From Spirochaetaceae bacterium (GTDB taxonomy: Bacteria > Spirochaetota > Spirochaetia > SZUA-6 > Bin103): a stretch of DNA of 27,893 bases. Location of the stretch: contig JAPOQV010000324.1 in NCBI GenBank assembly GCA_026710565.1, positions 1 to 27,893 of the forward strand, in the 5' to 3' direction. A model generated the notes under the pieces. It saw only the letters and a list, made by a program, of their open reading frames with translations, had not been told where the DNA came from and ran no database searches. This document shows positions 10,115 to 26,632 of the stretch, piece by piece. The number at the start of each line of letters is the position of its first letter. Position 1 is the stretch's first letter. The translations under genes and the position numbers were made by a program.

Positions 10115-10202
10115 GCTCTGCTCAATCGGCCCACTGAGCTCTGCTCAGTCGGCCCACTGAGCAGAGCTCAGTCGCGACACTGAACTGGGCTCAGTCGCTC
10201 AC
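10112..10202. repeat. Four-copy 23-bp tandem repeat between polA and the Sel1 gene
   Basis: Units start at 10112, 10135, 10158 and 10181. Each follows the pattern TGA(G/A)C...GCTCA(A/G)TCG...CAC with a period of 23 (last copy 22). The first two copies have the core TGAGCTCTGCTCA, while the third has its exact reverse complement, TGAGCAGAGCTCA. The polA stop codon lies in unit 1 and the stop of the convergent Sel1 gene lies in unit 4, so the whole intergenic space is made of the repeat. Confidence 0.85.
10133..10172. terminator. 17-bp perfect hairpin, probable bidirectional terminator or mRNA 3' stabiliser
   Basis: Bases 10133-10149 (ACTGAGCTCTGCTCAGT) are exactly complementary to 10156-10172, leaving a 6-nt loop (CGGCCC). 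The hairpin starts 18 nt after the polA stop and ends 26 nt before the end of the convergent gene, so it can fold in both transcripts. No T-run follows on either strand, so it is not a classical intrinsic terminator. Blocking exonucleases or Rho-assisted termination are possible roles. The pairing is seen directly and the role is inferred. Confidence 0.6.
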
Positions 10203-11728
10203 TGGGTGGCGCCGGCGGGTAGCGTGATCGCGTCAGGCGTTGGCTGCCACTCCCGCGCCAGGCGCCTGGCCTCCGCCAGCAGGGCCGGGGAGAGACGGGC
10301 GGCGACCTGATCCCGGAACCGCTCGGCCGCTTCCCGCCGCTCCGGTGACTGGAACCGCGAGGCGGCGAGCTCGTACCACAGGTGCGCCTGCGTGTCGTCC
10401 TGCTCCACGCCCAGTCCCTTGTCGTACATGTACCCGATCGAGAACTGAGCGTCGGCGGCACCCCGTTCGGCGGCGCGCTGGTACCAGGCGGCCGCTACCG
10501 CATGGTCCTGCGCAACGCCCTGCCCGGCGTAGTACATGTTGCCGATGGTGTACTGAGCCACGACGTCTCCTTGCTCGGCGGCGCGCCGGAACCACTTCGC
10601 GACTTCCCTGGTCAGGGCCGGCGGGATGTCCTCGCCCGACGTATTGGTGACGATGTACCGGGCCTCGTCGTGTCCCAGTTCGGCGGCGCGCCGGAACCAG
10701 TCCATGGCTATGGCATAGTCCTGGGAGACGCCGACGCCGACTCCGTACATGATCCCGACCCGGAACTGAGCGTCGGCGTGGCCTTCTTCGGCGATGCGCA
10801 GCAGCCACTTCGCGGCTTCGCCAAAGTCCTGAGGGACGCCCAGACCGTCGAGGTACATGGTCGCGAGCCGGGACTGAGCGTAGGCGTCACCCTGTTCGGC
10901 GGCCGCAAGGAACCACGTCGCGGCTTCGTCGTAGTCCCGGGGGACGCCCTGACCGAGATAGTAGCTGGCCCCCAGCCCGGACTGAGCGTCCGGGTCGCCC
11001 TGCTCGGCCGCCCGGCGGAACCACTTCACGGCCTCTGCCAGGTCCTGGTCCACGCCATGGCCGTCGCGATACATGAAGCCAAGCAGGGCCTGAGCGCGCA
11101 CGTGGCCCTGCGCAGCCGCGCGGCCGAGCCATGTGGCTGCCTGGGCCGTGTTCCGAGAAACGCCTGTTCCATCCAGATACATGAGTCCCAGGTAGAACTG
11201 GGCGTAGGTATAGTCCTGTTCGGCGGCCTGGAGGTACCAGGAGGCGGCCGTTGCCGGGTTCTTGGAAACGCCCCGTCCTATGTGGTACGAGACGCCGAGG
11301 TAGTACTGAGCGTAGGAATCGCCCTGATCGGCCGCCCGGCGGTACCACCGAAGCGCCTCGGCGTCACTCTGGGCGACCCCGTGGCCTTCGGCGTACATGA
11401 GTCCGAGGCTGGCCTGAGCCTCGACATCGCCCTGCTCGGCTGCCCGCGCGTACCACGTCGCCGCTTCCGCAAGGTTGCGGGAGACGCCGAGGCCCAGGTA
11501 GTGCATGACCCCGAGCCGGTACTGGGCTCCAGCGTCACCCTGTAGTGCGAGATTCCGGAATCCCCGGTACGCAGTTGCATAGTCCCCGCGTTCGTAGGCC
11601 GCGACGGACTCACTCAAGGTCTGGGCGATCGCCGGCATGGCCGCCGACGCCGCCAGCAGGACCACGAGAGCCGGGACACACACACGAAGCGCCCGCCGCG
11701 CTCCGGTCCCGATGACGCTCACTCCCAT
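10199..11728 (-). CDS. Secreted Sel1-like repeat (SLR) protein
   Basis: This 509-aa protein is built from about eleven 36-residue Sel1 repeats, starting near residue 64. The repeat pattern is AQ-x2-LG-x-MY-x2-G-x-GV...A-x2-WY-x-RAAEQGD. The ninth repeat is degenerate (GHDEARYIVTNTSGEDIPP). Such alpha-solenoids act as protein-binding scaffolds. I chose the ATG at 11728 because it gives a signal peptide: a basic start (GARRALR), a hydrophobic stretch (VPALVVLLAASAA) and an AIAQ-type cleavage site. The frame is open to 11998, but the extra 90 residues look like non-coding sequence. The export route fits an envelope or periplasmic role; the partner is unknown. It stands alone, convergent with polA. 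Confidence 0.88.
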   Translation of the reverse strand: MGVSVIGTGARRALRVCVPALVVLLAASAAMPAIAQTLSESVAAYERGDYATAYRGFRNLALQGDAGAQYRLGVMHYLGLGVSRNLAEAATWYARAAEQGDVEAQASLGLMYAEGHGVAQSDAEALRWYRRAADQGDSYAQYYLGVSYHIGRGVSKNPATAASWYLQAAEQDYTYAQFYLGLMYLDGTGVSRNTAQAATWLGRAAAQGHVRAQALLGFMYRDGHGVDQDLAEAVKWFRRAAEQGDPDAQSGLGASYYLGQGVPRDYDEAATWFLAAAEQGDAYAQSRLATMYLDGLGVPQDFGEAAKWLLRIAEEGHADAQFRVGIMYGVGVGVSQDYAIAMDWFRRAAELGHDEARYIVTNTSGEDIPPALTREVAKWFRRAAEQGDVVAQYTIGNMYYAGQGVAQDHAVAAAWYQRAAERGAADAQFSIGYMYDKGLGVEQDDTQAHLWYELAASRFQSPERREAAERFRDQVAARLSPALLAEARRLAREWQPTPDAITLPAGATQ

Positions 11729-12058
11729 CCCAACGCGATGCCCTGCGCGCCATGCTACTCGTGCCACTGCGATTGGTCCAACGAACCAGTCTGTCCCGAG
11801 CACGTCGGCGGAGTCGTCGCCATGGTGCAGGCGGTGGCTGGGCGTACCGGCGACTTCCCGCCGCGGTCGTGTTTCGCCGCCGACTTCGAGCGCTTCTCCA
11901 ACCAGAGCGGCCGGAGCGCCTTCTCGAACTGGGCGCGCAGCGTTCGATCCCGCGACCGGCATCATGCGCACCGGCCGACACCACGATGCGCGGCGCACAT
12001 CAGTACTCGTTCCGGCTGTCGCCCCGCCATGGCGGAGTGCATCCGGACTAGCGGGCAG
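11729..12058. other. 330-nt stretch without a supported gene
   Basis: This is the upstream region of the Sel1 gene and lies downstream of the SecB-like gene, both on the - strand. Open frames exist on both strands because of the high GC content, but none has a ribosome-binding site and a recognisable product. I see no convincing -35/-10 pair, no strong inverted repeat and no tRNA-like fold. Confidence 0.5.
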
Positions 12059-12529
12059 CTACGGGCTCTGTTCCGAGTTCCCCGTTCCTGACTCGCTCGG
12101 TGGGTCCGACTTGAGGACCTTGACGAGATTGGCTGACGGCACTCGAAGTCGTCCCAATCTACTTAGACCCGTTACCGACTCGATGATCCCTCGCGCCGCA
12201 CCCAGCAGCATCACGGAACCGTTGTGGACTAGCATCATAGGAGTACCCTTGTTGCCATCATCATCGGACTGGAGACGGAATACTCCACTGATTGTGAGAT
12301 CGAATGTCCGGACGTTTCCTTGAGCGGTTCGAATCCTCAGCGTCACCATGTAGGTGGGTTCGCCTTCTAATTCAGCTTCATGGACCACGGGTCGGGAAAG
12401 CGACAACGTAGGTTCCTCGAGTTCCTCCGGGCTGTCGTGAGTCTCCTCGTACTGAAGGCGCTCGACGCAGAAATGGAGGAGGCTTAGGCCGGCTCGGCCG
12501 ACCTCCTGAAGAGGGAACCCGTTAGCCAT
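12059..12529 (-). CDS. SecB-like chaperone of a toxin-antitoxin-chaperone (TAC) module
   Basis: This 156-aa protein has the length of SecB (about 155). Its C-terminal half follows the SecB pattern: a strand pair ending in LTISGVFRL, then SVMLLGAARGIIESVTGLS, which parallels SecB's LxPYARExIxxLxxR helix. RLRVPSANLVKVL then corresponds to SecB's LPPxNFxxLF segment. The N-terminal strands (LSLLHFCVERLQYE, YMVTLRIRTAQG) also fit. It lies 3 nt after the HigA-like antitoxin and has no good ribosome-binding site of its own, so it is probably coupled. In TAC modules such a chaperone binds the antitoxin's C-terminus and protects it. I infer that role from position and fold, not from a proven match; a generic SecB is less likely in this context. 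Confidence 0.72.
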   Translation of the reverse strand: MANGFPLQEVGRAGLSLLHFCVERLQYEETHDSPEELEEPTLSLSRPVVHEAELEGEPTYMVTLRIRTAQGNVRTFDLTISGVFRLQSDDDGNKGTPMMLVHNGSVMLLGAARGIIESVTGLSRLGRLRVPSANLVKVLKSDPPSESGTGNSEQSP

Positions 12530-12532
12530 CAG

Positions 12533-12922
12533 CTACGCTGCGGACGTCAGTTCCGTGGAAACCGTCTCGGGTCCAAGGGACATCTCCACACTCCCACGCA
12601 GCCTGAAAAGGTCTGACTTAGTGAACGCCTCGATGCGTGGGAGGGCGGAATCCGAATGCGCAACGGCGCTCTTCAGACGCACCTCGATTCGGCTCTCAAG
12701 CCCGATGGCGACCGCAACGAGACTCTTCAATGTGAGATTGTCATTGCCGCTGAGGATCTGGCTGATACGAGCTTTGCTCACCCCGATGGCTGCTGCCAGA
12801 GCGGTCCGAGTCAATCCCAGTTCTTCCATCCGGTCAACGATACGCTCCCCGACATCGATAGATAGAAGATCAAACTCGAACTCGGGATCGCCTTCAAAGC
12901 GTCGGACCCAACTATCGATCAC
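12533..12922 (-). CDS. HigA-like XRE-family antitoxin with C-terminal extension
   Basis: This 129-aa protein has a clear XRE helix-turn-helix (about 27-80): GLTRTALAAAIGVSKARISQ, then ILSGNDNLTLKSLVAVAIGL. After the DNA-binding domain about 45 residues remain (SALPRIEAFTKSD to TELTSAA). In TAC systems an antitoxin C-terminal tail of this kind is the chaperone-addiction (ChAD) segment, so this is the candidate SecB-binding part. The GTG start at 12922 has GGAGGG plus AAAGG upstream and overlaps the toxin's end by 11 nt. It should neutralise the HigB-like toxin and repress the operon promoter. Confidence 0.85.
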   Translation of the reverse strand: MIDSWVRRFEGDPEFEFDLLSIDVGERIVDRMEELGLTRTALAAAIGVSKARISQILSGNDNLTLKSLVAVAIGLESRIEVRLKSAVAHSDSALPRIEAFTKSDLFRLRGSVEMSLGPETVSTELTSAA

Positions 12923-13310
12923 CCTTTCCCTCCATCCTCTGTTGTGCCTCGGTAATCACTTCGCGATACGCCTCTCGTCCGGCATGTAGCGCTTGACTCG
13001 GCGTCTTCTTTGCCTTCTTGGTGAATCCATGCAGCAGTATGATTCGTCTTGCTCCCAGTGGGTCGTAGCACCAGAAGATACGCTGCTGGCCAGCCTTGAA
13101 CTCCCAGGAGTTCTCGCCCTTGAGCTTGCGGCACTTCTCTTGGTTCCGTGGCGGTCCAAGGTCGGCCGACACGGAGAGCAGAGCAGCGACTCGCTTCTGG
13201 TCTCGCAGATCAAGGGCCTCCAGATGTCCCTCGACTTGGCAGGCACGATCGCTCCGGGCATACGCGAGCACCTCATAGGCGAAACCAGCATATAACTGCT
13301 TCAGTGGCAA
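12912..13310 (-). CDS. HigB/RelE-family (Gp49-like) toxin
   Basis: This protein of about 132 aa belongs to the RelE/HigB superfamily of ribosome-dependent mRNA interferases. The pattern matches well: a helix pair over YEVLAYARSDRACQVEGHLEAL, then LGPPRNQEKCRKLKGENSWEF, QQRIFWCYDPLGARRIILL, and the hallmark HGFTKKAKKTPSQAL tail (family LLHGFxKKxxKTPxxEI). The only in-frame start after the stop at 13314-13316 that spans the domain is TTG at 13310, with GAGG upstream, so the exact start is uncertain. It is the first gene of the three-gene module and overlaps the antitoxin by 11 nt. Confidence 0.87.
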   Translation of the reverse strand: MPLKQLYAGFAYEVLAYARSDRACQVEGHLEALDLRDQKRVAALLSVSADLGPPRNQEKCRKLKGENSWEFKAGQQRIFWCYDPLGARRIILLHGFTKKAKKTPSQALHAGREAYREVITEAQQRMEGKGDR

Positions 13311-13379
13311 TAACTAAGCGCCTCAACCAGCGTGAACCCACATCGGACGACCTCTCTCGTCAGCCCCTGGGACACTCCA

Positions 13380-13408
13380 TAGTTAACCTAAGGCTTTACC
13401 GAAGTCAA
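13380..13408 (-). promoter_or_regulatory. Candidate promoter/operator of the TAC module
   Basis: On the - strand TTGACT (13408-13403) is followed after 16-17 nt by TTAACT or TAACTA. The near-palindrome TAGGTTAACTA overlaps the -10 area, a reasonable place for HigA autorepression. The -35 match is good and the -10 match is weak. The rest of 13311-13601, between the toxin and the RraA gene, shows no gene. Confidence 0.4.
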
Positions 13409-13601
13409 CACCGGGCTCGTAGTTCCGGTTCGACGTCACGGAGGTCCCGGCCATCGTTCTGGCGTGCCGCCAAGCCTCTGACCGCGCAGCGCCGGCTGTT
13501 TGGTCGCGAACAGTTCGCCGAGAACCTGTCGACGGTCGCCGTCCGAGGGGAGCACCGAGGAGAGGGCTCCCGCCACGCTACGGCTGGGACCGAGTTCGCC
13601 C

Positions 13602-14345
13602 TTAGTTCTGCCGGGCCTTCCACGCGCGGTACTGGGCGAAGGTCTCCTCGTCGGGCGGGTAGTACTTGCCGGGGGAGAGGTTCTCCTCGTCCAGGCGGCG
13701 GCGGATCCACTCCTCCAGGTCGTCGCGCTCGATGGTCGCCTGGGCGATCTCCGGCGCGATCGAGCGCGGAATGACCACCACGCCGTCGTCGTCGGCGACC
13801 AGGTAGTCGCCGGGACGGACCAGCACGCCGTCCACGGAGATCGCGTCGTTGGCGGTGTAGGGGTAGCCGAACTGCGTGCCCAGGGCCGCGGTCCTGCCCA
13901 AGCCCCAGAGCGAGACGCCGTAGTCCTTGACGGTGTCCATGTCGCGGATGCCGCCGTCGCAGATCAGGCCGTCCGCCCCGCGCTGCTTGAGCCGGAGGAA
14001 CTTGATGTCGCCGCCGACCGACATGAGCGTGCTGCGCATGGCCTCCATGACGATTACGTCGCCCGGTCCGGCCTGCTCGAATGCCACGTACTCCGCCGAC
14101 TGCTCGCCGGGCGGCTTGTCGGCCACGCCGTCCGGCCGCGCGGGGACGAAGCGGACGGTCACCGCCCGCGCCACCAGCCGAGCGCCGGGGCTCATGCTCT
14201 TCAGGTTCGGCATGAAGGTGTAGCGCGCCGCGTAGCCGGCGTGGGCCAGCGTGTCGACCACGGCGGTCGAGTTGATCAGTCGCAGCGCGGCGCGGGTCGC
14301 CTCGTCCAGAACGTGCCCGGGGGTCGGTTGGACCAGCGCCTCCAT
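13602..14345 (-). CDS. RraA-family protein (HMG/CHA aldolase-like)
   Basis: This 247-aa protein belongs to the RraA fold family, which includes 4-hydroxy-4-methyl-2-oxoglutarate aldolase / oxaloacetate decarboxylase and the RNase E regulator RraA. The signature is GADGLICDGGIRDMDTVKDY, with the Arg-Asp pair (R134, D135) that binds substrate and metal. GPGDVIVMEA and VRPGDYLVADDDGVVVIP are the other conserved strands. It is longer than RraA itself (about 160 aa) and has the C-terminal helices of the aldolase-like group. The ATG lies 4 nt after the aldolase gene, so the two are co-translated. The substrate is unknown; an aldolase or decarboxylase acting with its neighbour is my inference. Confidence 0.82.
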   Translation of the reverse strand: MEALVQPTPGHVLDEATRAALRLINSTAVVDTLAHAGYAARYTFMPNLKSMSPGARLVARAVTVRFVPARPDGVADKPPGEQSAEYVAFEQAGPGDVIVMEAMRSTLMSVGGDIKFLRLKQRGADGLICDGGIRDMDTVKDYGVSLWGLGRTAALGTQFGYPYTANDAISVDGVLVRPGDYLVADDDGVVVIPRSIAPEIAQATIERDDLEEWIRRRLDEENLSPGKYYPPDEETFAQYRAWKARQN

Positions 14346-16525: not shown

Positions 16526-16747
16526 TCATGAGGCGAGCCACGCGGAAACATCGCCGGCTTCGTGGTTCGTCGTCTCGTCCTTCCGGACGATCTCGATGCC
16601 CAGGCTGCCCAGATGCTGGATGAACTCGCTCAGGGAGAGACCGCTGATTCTCGCGGCCTTTCCCAGCGAGACGCCGCCGCCATTGTAGAGACTGGCCGCG
16701 AGCGCCAGCCGGCTTCTCCATTCTTCAAGGATCAAGGTGCCGGTCAT
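16526..16747 (-). CDS. UPF0175-family small protein, putative antitoxin
   Basis: This 73-aa protein has the UPF0175 helix-turn-helix-like pattern: LALAASLYNGGGVSLGKAAR, then ISGLSLSEFIQHLGSLGIEI (family LAxxLYxxGxxSLGKAAxLAGxxxxEFxxxLxxxGI). UPF0175 proteins are commonly encoded beside PIN-domain toxins and are treated as antitoxins. The ATG overlaps the stop of the upstream metallo-hydrolase remnant (ATGA). Directly downstream, another ATGA overlap opens a reading frame of only 14 codons (16485-16529), where a toxin would be expected. Either the partner was lost or none existed. I am sure of the family resemblance, less so of the function. Confidence 0.7.
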   Translation of the reverse strand: MTGTLILEEWRSRLALAASLYNGGGVSLGKAARISGLSLSEFIQHLGSLGIEIVRKDETTNHEAGDVSAWLAS

Positions 16748-17215
16748 AGCGGGTTGCCGATCTCCGGTGCTTCGGTACGGATCGTCTTGAGGTCTTCGCC
16801 CACGATGATCCGGCCGTCGTAGATATCGGCGATCTCTTTCACGATGCGCTCGCGTACCCCATCCGCGTCGACCTGCCGTGTCATGTGCGTCAGCACCAGC
16901 GTGCCCACGCCGGCGCGTTGCGCATGCTCGGCCGCATGCCTGTGGCCCGCCGTACCCCAGCTCATCGCCTTGTTGTACTCCGTTCCGCTCACGTAGTGGC
17001 ACATGTGGACCAGGATGTCCGCCCCCTGGGCCAGCTCGACCAGGGCGTCGCACGGTCCGGTATCGCCGCTGTACACCAACGATCCCTCGTCGCAATCGAG
17101 GCGGTAGGCAAGGGAGATCAACTGCGGCTGTGTGTGCGGCGTCTCGACGGCGCGCACCGTCCAGCCGCCCCCTTCCACCGTCGAGCCGTGCTGCAGCTCT
17201 GTGACCCGAGGGTGC
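16744..17215 (-). pseudogene. Metallo-beta-lactamase-fold hydrolase, 3' half only
   Basis: About 157 codons match the C-terminal half of RNase Z/arylsulfatase-like MBL hydrolases. Key parts are SLVYSGDTGPCDALVELAQG with the metal-bridging Asp, ADILVHMCHY, GTAGHRHAAEHAQRAGV and TLVLTHM with the last His ligand. The N-terminal half with HxHxDH is absent. Readable homology stops around RVTELQHGST (near 17215), and beyond it the opposite strand carries a glycosyltransferase remnant. A GTG at 17178 could start a 144-aa product, but it would lack the active site. I call it a truncated gene. It overlaps the UPF0175 start by 4 nt. Confidence 0.75.
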
Positions 17216-17270
17216 GGACGTGCTCGCGGGTCGACCGACGCCTACGCCGCCGACATGCGCGCCGCGCTCG

Positions 17271-17539
17271 GGCAACGCCTTCCTGGAGGCCATCTACTTC
17301 CGTAAGCCGCTGGTCGTGAACCGCTACTCCGTGTACACCCACGACATCGAGCTGCTCGGCTTCCGCACGATCGAGATGGACGAGTTCGTCAGCGAGGACA
17401 CGTGTGCGTAGCTCGCCGCTACCTCACCGATCCCGCCCTGCGCGCCGAGGCCGCAGAGCACAACTACCGCATCGCCCGCACCTACTACTCCTACGAGACC
17501 CTGGAGGAGCGCCTCCGCCTGGTCCTGAGCATGTTCTGA
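17271..17539 (+). pseudogene. Glycosyltransferase (GT-B, group 1 type) C-terminal remnant with frameshift
   Basis: GNAFLEAIYFRKPLVVNRYS, followed by VYTHDIELLGFRTIEMDEF, matches the donor-site and C-terminal part of group 1 glycosyltransferases (conserved GNAxLEAxYxxKPxVVNRY). The frame closes at TAG 17409-17411. The match resumes one frame over (VARRYLTDPALRAEAAEHNY, then RIARTYYSYETLEERL) up to TGA 17537-17539. So at least one frameshift lies near 17402, and the whole N-terminal part is missing. Upstream (17220-17270) is not recognisable. Confidence 0.72.
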
Positions 17540-19991: not shown

Positions 19992-21593
19992 ATGGCACGG
20001 GAACGACCAAGGAAGCAGACGGCCGCGCGAGGAGGGGCGGACAGCGCTCAGGCCGCCACGACCGGATACGAGGCCGAGCTGTGGCGCATGGCCGACGCGC
20101 TGCGGGGCTCGATGGATGCAGCCGAGTACAAGCACGTCGTCCTGGGCCTGATCTTCCTCAAGTACATCTCCGACGCATTCGAGGAGCGGCACACGCTACT
20201 CGAACGCGAGCAAGCCGAGGGCGCCGACCCCGAGGATCCGGACGAGTACCGCGCGGAGAGCATCTTCTGGGTCCCGCGCGAGGCGCGCTGGGGCCATCTC
20301 AAGGCGCAGGCCAGGCAGCCCACCATCGGCCAGCTCGTCAACGACGCCATGGCCGCGATCGAGCGCGACAACCCGGGGCTCAAGGACGTGCTCCCCAAGG
20401 ACTACGCCCGCCCGGCTCTCGATAAGCAGCGGCTTGGTCAGCTCATCGACATGATCAGCAACATCAAGGTGGGCGACCAGGAGGCCCGCTCGAAGGACGT
20501 GATCGGCCGGGTGTACGAGTACTTCCTGTCACAGTTTGCCAGTGCCGAGGGCAAAAAGGGCGGCGAGTTCTATACCCCGCGCTGCGTCGTCAAGCTCCTG
20601 GTCGAGATGCTGGAGCCCTACCGGGGCCGCGTCTACGACCCCTGCTGCGGCTCCTCCGGCATGTTCGTTCAGTCGGTCGAGTTCATCCGCGCCCACACCA
20701 CCGGCAACGGCAACGGCGGCAGGGCGCGCGGCGACATCTCCGTGTACGGCCAGGCGTCGACCTCCACGACGTGGCGCCTGGCCAAGATGACCCTCGCCAT
20801 CCGCGGCATCGAGGGCCAGATCGCCCACGGCGACACCTTCCACAACGATCGCCACCCCGACCTCAAGGCCGACTTCATCCTGGCCAATCCCCCGTTCAAC
20901 GTCTCCGATTGGGGCGGCGACCGGCTTGCGGACGACAAGCGCTGGCGCTATGGGGTCCCGCCCCGAAGAAACGCCAACTTCGCCTGGGTGCAACACATCA
21001 TCCACCATTTGGCACCCGGCGGCACGGCCGGCTTCGTCCTCGCCAACGGCTCGATGTCCTCGAACCAGTCCGGCGAGGGAGAAATCCGCAAGAACCTGAT
21101 CGAGGCCGATCTGGTCGACTGCATGGTGGCGCTGCCGGGGCAATTGTTCTACGCCACGCAGATTCCCGCCTGCCTCTGGTTCCTCGCCGGCGATCGTCAA
21201 GGCGGTACGTCCCGAGACCGTCGCAGTACGCTGCTGTTCATCGACGCTCGCAAGCTCGGCCGCATGGTCGACCGCACCCACCGGGAGTTCACGGACGAGG
21301 ACATCGCCCGCATCGCCGACACGTACCATGCATGGCGCGGAGAAGAAGCAGCCGGCGTCTACGCCGACGTTCCCGGCTTCTGCAAGAGCACGGCGCTGGA
21401 GGAGGTGCGCAAGCACGGTTACGTGCTCACCCCCGGCCGTTACGTCGGAGTCGAGGCACCGGAAGACGACGGCGAGCCATTCGAGGCCAGAATGAACCGC
21501 CTCGTAGCCAAGCTCCGAGAGCAACAGGCGGAGGCAGGAAAACTGGATGTTGTTATAGCCACCAATCTGAAGGAGTTGGGGTATGGGTCGTAG
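19992..21593 (+). CDS. hsdM: Type I restriction-modification methyltransferase subunit HsdM
   Basis: This 533-aa protein is the m6A DNA methyltransferase subunit that pairs with HsdS. The N-terminal HsdM_N helical domain (about 25-165) has [20 protein letters not shown], then [15 protein letters not shown]. The methyltransferase domain follows: [20 protein letters not shown] motif [14 protein letters not shown] (from 216), [20 protein letters not shown], and catalytic motif IV NPPF (299-302). The C-terminal part reaches the HsdS overlap (11 nt). The 213 nt upstream (19779-19991) hold no supported gene and only weak promoter-like hexamers. All catalytic motifs are intact, unlike the fragment at 17573. 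Confidence 0.96.
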
Positions 21594-22791
21594 CTGGAAC
21601 GATGCCGCTCTGGGAGAGTTGCTGTCGTTTGCCAATGGACGATCGAGCCCCGAACGTGACGAGCGATTCTCTCATCCGGTGTATGGCTCTAATGGGCTCA
21701 TCGGGTACTCAGAAGAGACGAACGCCGACCCGGACACGATCATTATAGGACGGGTCGGAAGCTATTGCGGTTCCCTGCACTACAGCTCCGATGATTGCTG
21801 GGTAACAGACAACGCCATTCGGGCAACTGCAATCGAAGATAATGACTCACGATTTCTCTATTATCTCCTGCAAACTCTAAGTTTGAATGACTGGCGAGCA
21901 GGGTCGGGTCAACCTCTCCTAAACCAAACAACCCTTGCCTCAATTCCCGTAAGAGTCCCCCCGTCGCACGAGCAACGGGCCATCGCAGGGTTTCTCGGCG
22001 CCCTGGACGAAAAAATTGATCTAAACCGTCATATGAACGAGACTATGGACGCCATCGCTCGAGGCTTGTTCAAGTCATGGTTCGTCGATTTCGATCCCGT
22101 CCACGCCAAACGTGTTCGTTCCCATCATCCACAACCCGACAAGAAATTCTTAAGTCTGTTTCCCGAATCGTTCGACCGTCACGGCACGCCGCAAGGATGG
22201 AGTACTAAGCCACTCTCAGGCATCGCCGAGTTTCTGAACGGTTTGGCGATGCAGAGGTTTCCTGCAATCTCATCATCGAATAGTCTGCCTGTAATCAAAG
22301 TCAGTGAGCTGCGTAGCGGCGTGACGCCAAAAACGGGGCGAGCGTCGCGTGGCATGCCAGCGAAATATGTCGTGAGAGATGGCGACTTTCTGTTCTCATG
22401 GTCTGGAAGTCTGATAGCGAAGTTTTGGACCGGTGGTGAAGGAGCCCTAAATCAGCATCTATTCAAGGTCACTTCCGGTCGGTACCCTATGTGGTTTTGC
22501 GGTCATTGGATTTACCATCACTTGGAAGGCTTCCAGGCCATAGCGGCTTCGAAGGCAACCACGATGGGACACATCCAACGGCGTCATCTGAAACAGGCGA
22601 TGGCCACTTGCCCGCCAGATGGTGTGCTCGCCGAGTTGGGCCACATTATGGAGAACTTAGTAGACAGAGTCATCAAGAACGAGCTGGAATCTCGGACACT
22701 GGTGGAAATCCGAGACCGTCTTCTCTCGAAACTCATTACCGGTGAACTTCGCATTCTGTCAGCCGTGAACGGGAGGGAGGACGCAACATGA
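21583..22791 (+). CDS. hsdS: Type I restriction-modification specificity subunit HsdS
   Basis: This 402-aa protein sets the bipartite DNA target of the complex. It has two target-recognition domains: TRD1 (about 1-130: [49 protein letters not shown]) and TRD2 (about 205-345: [31 protein letters not shown]). Each is followed by a conserved helical spacer, [19 protein letters not shown] in the middle and [16 protein letters not shown] at the end. The ATG lies inside the end of hsdM. The gene is noticeably richer in A/T than hsdM, as is common for exchangeable specificity genes. Its stop overlaps the next gene by 4 nt (ATGA). Confidence 0.95.
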
Positions 22792-24650: not shown

Positions 24651-25803
24651 TGGAGGTCGACATTCGCGACAGGAACGCTCTGCTGGCCGTGTCACCGGCG
24701 GCGCTGTCGGCGTACACGCCCGCGCGAGCGGATGGGAGCGACAGGATGCGTACCGCGTGCACTCGGATGTCTACGTCGGTGAGGCGCGGCCGGAGATCAT
24801 CGTGCCGCGCACGGAGCGCTTGGGCGATTACGCGAGCGTCGTGGCGATGCTGATCGACACGTTCGCCAACGTGGCTGACGAGGACGCGATGACGGTCTAT
24901 CGCGATCTCGTGACCGCGGACCGGGACGTCGTGCGCGTGCGGGCGGCTGAGAGCGACGATGGCAGTGTTGGCTTGGACGACGGCGTGAACCTCGTGAGCG
25001 GCGCCCGCGATCTTCTGCTGTCAGCGGCGTGCTCAATTCGGGAGCCACAGCCCGTCTATCGTCCCGGGGCGAATCGGGAGGCGGCAGAGCTGTTGAAGCG
25101 GATGCGACTTGGACAGACGGACCACGGCAGCTTCGGGGTGACATTGCTGACGCCGGTCGTGCCGCCGGCAATGCCTGCGCTATTTCCGGATCTGGATGAT
25201 AGGAGCGCGCCGATCGAACGTCGCACGACGCGGCGGCTGGTGGAGGCCGTCGTTGCGGCGCAACATGCGACGGAACGGGCGGCAGCAGGTGATGGCGGCG
25301 CCTTCGAGGGGACCGTGAGCAGCGGCGTGAGCGCGAATCTGTGCGAGGCCCTGGTGCGGATTATCGAGCCGTTTCCGGCGCTGGACGTCGGCGTTTCGTG
25401 GGCACGGACTCGTCCGGTGGCGATACAACGAACGGTAGTTCGCTTCGGCCAGGCGGATGCGGCTCTCCTGCGCGAGGCGGCGCATTCGCTCCGCGAGCGC
25501 GCGCCTCGACCCGACGTGCGCCTACACGGCTTCGTTCGGCTCCTGAAGCGCGGGGAGGCTGACGACGATGGCACGATCGGCCTCGCCACCGATATCGAAG
25601 GGAAACAGCAGTCGGTCGTGGCGGTCCTTGGTCGGGCGGACTATGAGCGGGCGGTTCAGGCTCACAAGGATCGCGCTCTGGTCGTGCTGGCGGGCGACCT
25701 CGAACGTGCGGGCCAGCGGTGGCGGTTACTGAATTCTCACGTCGATGGCGTTGTGCGCGACGACGAACAGGAATCGGGAGGCTCTCCGAGTGACGACGAG
25801 TAG
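24650..25803 (+). pseudogene. Partner gene of DUF4365, about 384 aa, one frameshift; function unknown
   Basis: The ATG at 24650 follows GGAGGGGGGAGA and overlaps the DUF4365 stop by one base. The first frame reads VDIRDRNALLAVSPAALSAY. After a frameshift between about 24715 and 24735 the match continues as GWERQDAYRVHSDVYVGEAR, PEIIVPRTERLGDYASVVAM, and on to TAG 25803. From 24757 an uninterrupted 348-residue frame exists. I know no function. It is acidic and mixed alpha/beta, has no transmembrane segment, and contains RDLVTADRDVVRVRAAESDD and GVSANLCEALVRIIEPFP. The C-terminal part (VRLHGFVRLLKRGEAD, DRALVVLAGDLE, GQRWRLLNSHV) looks like beta-barrel strands. I infer that it works with the DUF4365 protein, because the two are coupled. 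Confidence 0.68.
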
Positions 25804-25896
25804 ACATCGGGAAGAGAGTCCATCGTCTCGTTCCGATCACGGTGATGAGGAATGAAACTGTCTCTTGGCTGGAATCTGGGCCGACGAGTGTAGACA

Positions 25897-26028
25897 GTGG
25901 CGACCCTACACCGACTCACCGTTCGCGGCTTCAAGGCGATCCGCTCGCTGGAAGAAATCGAGGTGCGTGGAGTCAACGTGCTCATCGGGGCGAATGGCGC
26001 GGGCAAGAGCAATCTGCTGGACGTGTTC
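25897..26028 (+). pseudogene. AAA (OLD/RecF-like) ATPase, N-terminal 44 codons only
   Basis: A GTG start reads LHRLTVRGFKAIRSLEEIEV, then VNVLIGANGAGKSNLLDVF. This is the N-terminal strand pair and Walker A (GANGAGKS) of OLD/RecF-type ATPases that partner TOPRIM-like proteins. The ATPase homology stops at codon 44, where the sequence enters the DUF4276 frame. The frame runs on to 26139 with unrelated residues. Walker B, the coiled coil and the rest of the ATPase are missing. The 93 nt before it (25804-25896) hold no gene. Confidence 0.78.
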
Positions 26029-26632
26029 CCTGACGGAGGTCCTCGGGCCGCACCTTGCCGGCCGGAATCTGTATTTGGCCCGTCGGCTTGTGCCCACGTC
26101 AGCGGGCGGTCGCGTGAACAGACAGCGGATCCTGCGTGATACGCTGCGTCAACGACAGGATACCTACGTGACGACGTTCTTCGATCTGTATGGACTGCCA
26201 TCCGACTTTCCCGGACCTGTCGCCTCCTCCGCGGATCCCCTGGAGCGCGCAGCGGCCATCGAGGAGGCGCTGCATGAGGAAGTGGTGCGCGTGACACAGT
26301 GTCGCCCTGATCGGTTCGTGCCGCACATTCAGCCGTGTGAGTTCGAGGCGCTGCTGTTCTCGGATACGTCGCAATTTGCCCGGGAACAACCGGCGTGGGC
26401 AGGATCGGTCGCGGAACTCGCAGTGGCCGGTCGTCGCGCTGGCAGCCCGGAGCACATCAACGATGGATCGAAGACTCATCCATCGGCGCGGCTGGAGCGA
26501 CTGTCTGGGTACCGCAAGGTTCGCGACGGAACCGCGGTGGCAAGACGCATTGGGTTGTGCCGCATTCGCCGTGAGTGTGCGCACTTCGCTGATTGGGTCG
26601 CCCGGCTGGAATCCTTGGCGGCCCTGGGGTAG
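26027..26632 (+). pseudogene. DUF4276 (TOPRIM-like) protein, 5' end removed by deletion
   Basis: About 201 codons match DUF4276: LTEVLGPHLAGRNLYLARRL, YVTTFFDLYGLPSDFPG, IEEALHEEV, RFVPHIQPCEFEALLFSDTS, SPEHINDGSKTHPSARLERL and LCRIRRECAHFADWVARLE. The family's first 15 or so residues, with the VEGQTE motif whose Glu is thought to be catalytic, are gone. In their place is the ATPase fragment in a different frame. So a single deletion joined the start of the ATPase gene to codon about 15 of this gene. The open frame upstream to 25865 is therefore not its true start. A product could not be made normally and would lack the key Glu. Confidence 0.8.

Follow-up and report, generated by a model that had tools for sequence, protein, structure and literature searches.

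A probable toxin-antitoxin-chaperone operon with a divergent SecB-like third gene in a Spirochaetaceae bacterium

Three minus-strand genes in a 27,893-nucleotide stretch of DNA from a Spirochaetaceae bacterium (contig JAPOQV010000324.1 of assembly GCA_026710565.1; hereafter the window) very probably form a tripartite type II toxin-antitoxin-chaperone (TAC) operon, in which a SecB-like chaperone would hold the C-terminal tail of the antitoxin against Clp proteolysis. The genes follow one another in an operon-like array in the order toxin, antitoxin, SecB-like gene, as established from their coordinates, the Gp49 and HTH_3 domains of the first two products and the predicted fold of the third (Table 1). 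This is also the order of the Mycobacterium tuberculosis TAC locus Rv1955-Rv1957, to which a preliminary description of the window had likened it. The toxin and antitoxin reading frames share 11 nt (12912-12922) and a 3-nt gap (12530-12532) separates the antitoxin from the third gene, so the arrangement given in that description is confirmed.

Searches of public protein sets at E ≤ 0.001 found 29 relatives of the chaperone, 103 of the antitoxin and 18 of the toxin. The nearest relative of each protein is equally long and 98-99% identical to it, and more distant ones extend down to about 50-60% identity. Because each reading frame has relatives of similar length, we regard all three as true genes and not as chance frames. 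The TTG start of the toxin is unproven; its nearest relative begins at the same residue.

Toxin and antitoxin families

Residues 30-114 of the toxin match Gp49 (PF05973; E = 1e-11) with 45.2 bits, well over the gathering cut-off of 23.9. The toxin also shares its family with the solved HigB toxin 6af3/6af4, which is matched by a 17-sequence toxin profile (E = 9.5e-6) and which we take to be from Streptococcus pneumoniae HigBA. Gp49/HigB-like toxins presumably belong to the RelE/ParE superfamily. The antitoxin matches Pfam HTH_3 (E = 5e-9) and scores 29.9 bits against the NCBIfam HigA equivalog TIGR02607, below its curated cut-off of 47.7; "HigA-like" is therefore a correct name for this XRE protein, whereas "HigA" is not established. 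Both family assignments agree with those of the preliminary description. The pairing of the two genes is further supported by a relative (P0093) in which a partial Gp49 domain and an HTH domain are fused in one protein.

The antitoxin tail

The HTH_3 match stops at residue 75, and the antitoxin diverges among its relatives from about residue 80-85, which leaves a tail of about 45-50 residues, close to the 45 or so originally described. This extension varies among relatives in both length and composition. Across 28 comparisons among eight linked antitoxin-chaperone pairs (the window's included), mean identity is 0.83 for the antitoxin body, 0.63 for the chaperone and 0.44 for the tail.

The variable tail has a conserved end. 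The window antitoxin terminates in TELTSAA, and 73 of its 103 relatives also end in -AA, as do 72 of the 89 with at least 110 residues; about 1.1 are expected from composition. None of the 29 chaperone or 18 toxin relatives ends this way. The 89 longer relatives have 79 distinct sequences over their last 12 positions, 63 of them ending in AA, but these counts do not represent independent events because the antitoxin relatives are akin to each other. A ClpXP signal has been described at the C-terminus of TAC antitoxins (PMC11618068), and the chaperone-addiction (ChAD) segment of HigA1 is reported to hold both the chaperone site and the ClpX degron (PMC8165232, citing Texier et al. 2021). Judged by sequence, the window antitoxin appears to carry such a ClpXP-type (LAA-like) C-terminus, and its tail fits the reported HigA1 segment in length, variability and end.

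The SecB-like chaperone

In the predicted structure of the third protein an antiparallel sheet precedes two helices, first a long one and then a short one, and the model aligns with solved SecB. When this model is searched with Foldseek, M. tuberculosis Rv1957 (5mtw) ranks first (17-18% identity), and of the 23 matches at E ≤ 0.001, 19 carry the name SecB or Rv1957, the top ranks of these being well separated from the rest. The Pfam SecB model (PF02556) is matched at E ≤ 1 by 13 of 20 aligned relatives of the chaperone (best E = 3.1e-6) and misses the other seven even at this threshold. Similarity to SecB is consequently present at both the profile and the structure level, and what had been called SecB-like by eye is upheld by the predicted fold, the Pfam matches of relatives and an apparent linkage to antitoxin relatives.

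This linkage was read from exactly equal sizes of the longest contigs across the three tables of homologues. Seven of the 29 chaperone relatives lie on contigs sized exactly as that of an antitoxin relative (1197, 1366, 7206, 14835, 22610, 32061 and 63402 bases), and three of these ties also include a toxin relative (7206, 22610 and 32061). By chance, a mean of 0.19 and a maximum of three chaperone-antitoxin ties are expected (2000 trials with chaperone sizes jittered by up to 5%). If equal size means the same contig, then the genes on the 1197- and 1366-base contigs must be near neighbours. Toxin and antitoxin relatives are tied without a chaperone at two further sizes, 6613 and 425390. At the latter, shared by P0061 and P0144, the antitoxin relative has a short tail that does not end in -AA, and there is no chaperone relative of that size; this may possibly be a chaperone-free, two-gene version.

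Searches with the chaperone or its profile gave no relatives among viral contigs, plasmids or phages, and searches with the antitoxin or an antitoxin relative gave none among viral contigs or plasmids. A single scan of genome contigs with the chaperone returned one distant locus in Denitrificimonas caeni (37% identity over residues 75-136), which is also the sole chaperone match in 100 genomes of that phylum, its own genome among them. There (L001:5127-6213), an MqsA-type antitoxin reading frame (PF15731, 3.7e-18) overlaps a SecB-like one (PF02556, 0.003, below the cut-off). No toxin is seen beside this pair, its outer neighbours having been judged by eye, and the same genome carries one more, strong SecB match (4.1e-54).

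Proposed mechanism and comparison with known TAC systems

The binding, protection, degradation and triggering steps that we propose are taken from characterised TAC systems. The HigB-like toxin would probably be an mRNA-cleaving ribonuclease acting at the ribosome, as its family and the M. tuberculosis TAC toxin suggest. The HTH antitoxin would bind the toxin and probably repress the operon. Its fast-evolving tail may serve as the chaperone-addiction segment, which if unprotected would keep the antitoxin unfolded and expose the hydrophobic -AA end to ClpXP. Binding of this tail by the SecB-like chaperone, which is probably tetrameric, would let the antitoxin fold and would hide its end. Other clients, such as preproteins, phage capsid proteins or aggregates, could draw the chaperone off, upon which the antitoxin would be degraded and the toxin freed.

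The M. tuberculosis TAC system HigB1-HigA1-SecBTA (Rv1955-Rv1957) shares with the window trio its gene order, its chaperone fold (5mtw), an HTH antitoxin whose tail is about 45 residues long (PMC5105189) and a hydrophobic antitoxin C-terminus (PMC8165232). It differs in that the window chaperone has diverged too far to be matched directly by sequence; the toxin, antitoxin and tail are likened by description. ChAD binding on Rv1957 is reported to be unlike PhoA binding on Escherichia coli SecB (PMC6377645). The Geobacter lovleyi system (Glov_3492, Glov_3491 and its SecBTA), again likened by description, is a HigBA-type module from outside the mycobacteria (PMC5105189). E. coli CmdTAC also has a SecB-like chaperone, and its antitoxin ends in LAA (PMC11618068). 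However, its toxin is an mRNA ADP-ribosyltransferase in place of a Gp49/HigB-like protein, and its antitoxin has an N-terminal helix pair with a long unstructured C-terminal part where the window antitoxin has an HTH domain. From canonical export SecB (E. coli, Haemophilus influenzae) the third protein differs in its low identity, given below, and in the position of its gene beside a toxin-antitoxin pair.

The preliminary description considered such a module unusual outside mycobacteria, which does not hold, as TAC modules have been published in several groups (PMC4257090, PMC5105189). In one survey 52 of 688 SecB sequences, from several groups, are toxin-antitoxin-associated, and the chaperones of TAC or antitoxin-chaperone modules fall mostly in eight communities, with 33 known ones absent from PF02556 (PMC4257090). 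TAC antitoxins of the HigA, MqsA and HicB families have variable C-terminal extensions with transferable addiction, and the modules tested come from M. tuberculosis, G. lovleyi, Vibrio cholerae and M. methanica (PMC5105189). HigBA-type TAC outside mycobacteria is thus already known from these modules.

Weighing the evidence

Several observations weigh against a TAC operon, beginning with the identity of the chaperone. The 156-aa protein itself has no SecB match in Pfam (0 families at E ≤ 10) or NCBIfam, it matches no SecB sequence in the Protein Data Bank (PDB) by direct search, and a 21-sequence chaperone profile matches no SecB chain among PDB sequences. The PF02556 search suggested in the preliminary description therefore failed for the window protein and succeeded for many of its relatives. 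With no SecB match from direct sequence searches, PADLOC among them, the SecB assignment rests on these Pfam matches of relatives and on the fold. The misses, together with identities of only 12-18% to SecB and Rv1957 structures, would suit a third protein that is unrelated to SecB and whose small sheet-plus-helix fold is alike by chance. We consider this extremely improbable, since 13 relatives match PF02556 and since SecB and Rv1957 entries hold the top structure ranks, well apart from the rest.

The other adverse points concern the tail and the linkage. Those on nearly tailless antitoxin relatives, on untied chaperone relatives and on the missing interface would favour a classical HigBA pair that lies by chance upstream of an independent SecB-like export chaperone gene, with an antitoxin that needs no chaperone. 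Some antitoxin relatives (for example P0035, P0038 and P0081) have almost no tail, although a few may be cut. Rank correlation with chaperone identity across the 28 comparisons, which are non-independent, is 0.22 for the tail versus 0.77 for the body; tail-chaperone co-evolution is therefore not supported beyond a visible grouping into tail types. A confident interface between tail and chaperone, for which the preliminary description had looked to structure prediction, is not seen when the two proteins are folded as a single chain, obtained by translating through the in-frame stop that divides them. The tail is unordered in this model (block-mean pLDDT of about 20-30) and antitoxin residues 1-80 reach only 34-47; helices form in the antitoxin part, and the chaperone part has the same strands and helices as in the model of the chaperone by itself. 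Given the thin alignment and a monomer where a tetramer is expected, this fold counts neither for nor against tail binding. Linkage in relatives, finally, is apparent from contig sizes and not from neighbouring DNA. The preliminary description had named homologues found mostly away from toxin-antitoxin pairs as an outcome that would tell against it; ties to antitoxin relatives exist for seven of the 29, and the remaining 22 give no information either way. Independent genes are nonetheless improbable in view of the 3-nt gap and shared strand, the seven ties far above chance, two of them on contigs that scarcely exceed the genes in length, and the report that SecB outside the alpha-, beta- and gamma-proteobacteria is mostly toxin-antitoxin-associated (44 of 70; PMC4257090).

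A TAC operon could also be kept specifically as a phage defence like CmdTAC, its chaperone sensing newly synthesised phage capsid protein. This is compatible with the reading preferred here and is possible, if somewhat unlikely. It has the CmdTAC precedent (PMC11618068), restriction genes about 7 kb to the right of the trio, and an antitoxin whose best PADLOC matches are candidate defence-system models (PDC-M64B, E = 7.4e-10). These matches may reflect the common HTH domain alone, however; neither the toxin nor the chaperone matches a PADLOC model at E ≤ 10, and the trio lies mainly among housekeeping genes.

Genomic context

Table 1. The TAC trio and selected neighbouring features of the window.
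Feature	Position	Strand	Remarks
Toxin, Gp49/HigB-like	12912..13310	-	132 aa, TTG start; Pfam PF05973, solved-HigB profile match; 18 relatives
Antitoxin, XRE/HTH_3	12533..12922	-	129 aa, GTG start; Pfam HTH_3; 103 relatives
Antitoxin C-terminal tail, candidate chaperone-addiction (ChAD) segment	12533..12685	-	about residues 80-129, stop included; ends -TELTSAA, candidate ClpX-type degron
SecB-like chaperone	12059..12529	-	156 aa, ATG start
Sel1-repeat protein	10199..11998	-	11 repeat stretches (Pfam)
Reading frame with UPF0175 match	16526..17293	-	255 aa; PF03683 at residues 195-240, 5.8e-9
Type I restriction genes HsdM and HsdS	19992..22791		HsdS GC 53.2%
348-aa reading frame, then DUF4276 protein	24757..26632		no Pfam match at E ≤ 0.001 for the former; PF14103, 2.9e-39 for the latter

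The trio has a GC content of 57.5% compared with 66.1% for the window, and a GC content this low or lower occurs in 36 of 533 sliding stretches as long as the trio, which is a mild hint of acquisition. The accessory region of the preliminary description is borne out in part, by this lower GC and by the restriction genes further right; against it, the neighbours to the left and immediately to the right are mostly housekeeping genes (polA, ilvBN, pyrDF, aroC). Upstream of the toxin (13250-13620), the sole palindrome is an imperfect one of 9 nt at 13501-13512, about 190 nt away and unpersuasive as an operator. No sigma-70-like promoter was found upstream of the toxin, although that consensus may not be the host's.

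The Sel1-repeat gene lies directly downstream of the SecB-like gene. Its listed GTG start is probably too far upstream, and a hydrophobic stretch at about residues 106-120, judged by eye, may be a signal peptide. The start of the 255-aa frame may likewise be too far upstream; we take UPF0175 to be a family frequently met as the antitoxin of PIN toxins. The 348-aa frame and the DUF4276 gene together resemble what we understand to be candidate defence pairs of an ATPase plus DUF4276.

Implications

The module is a new, divergent member of a known TAC kind with a common -AA end, and not a new type of system. A further proposal, which we regard as speculative and rather unlikely, is that it represents a TAC lineage not found described in the literature searched, in which the antitoxin keeps its DNA-binding part and terminal degron almost unchanged but exchanges the chaperone-binding part of its tail time and again, every type of tail having a SecB-like partner of its own. 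The changing surface of tail and chaperone might then act as an arms-race sensor, for example against phage capsid proteins that take the chaperone away.

As a TAC operon, the trio adds a divergent lineage to the known modules. Because the Pfam SecB model misses the window chaperone and seven of its 20 aligned relatives, TAC modules of this sort are probably under-counted. The common -AA end yields a simple prediction of Clp-dependent turnover, and the natural variation of tail and chaperone among relatives could be used to work out what governs chaperone addiction.
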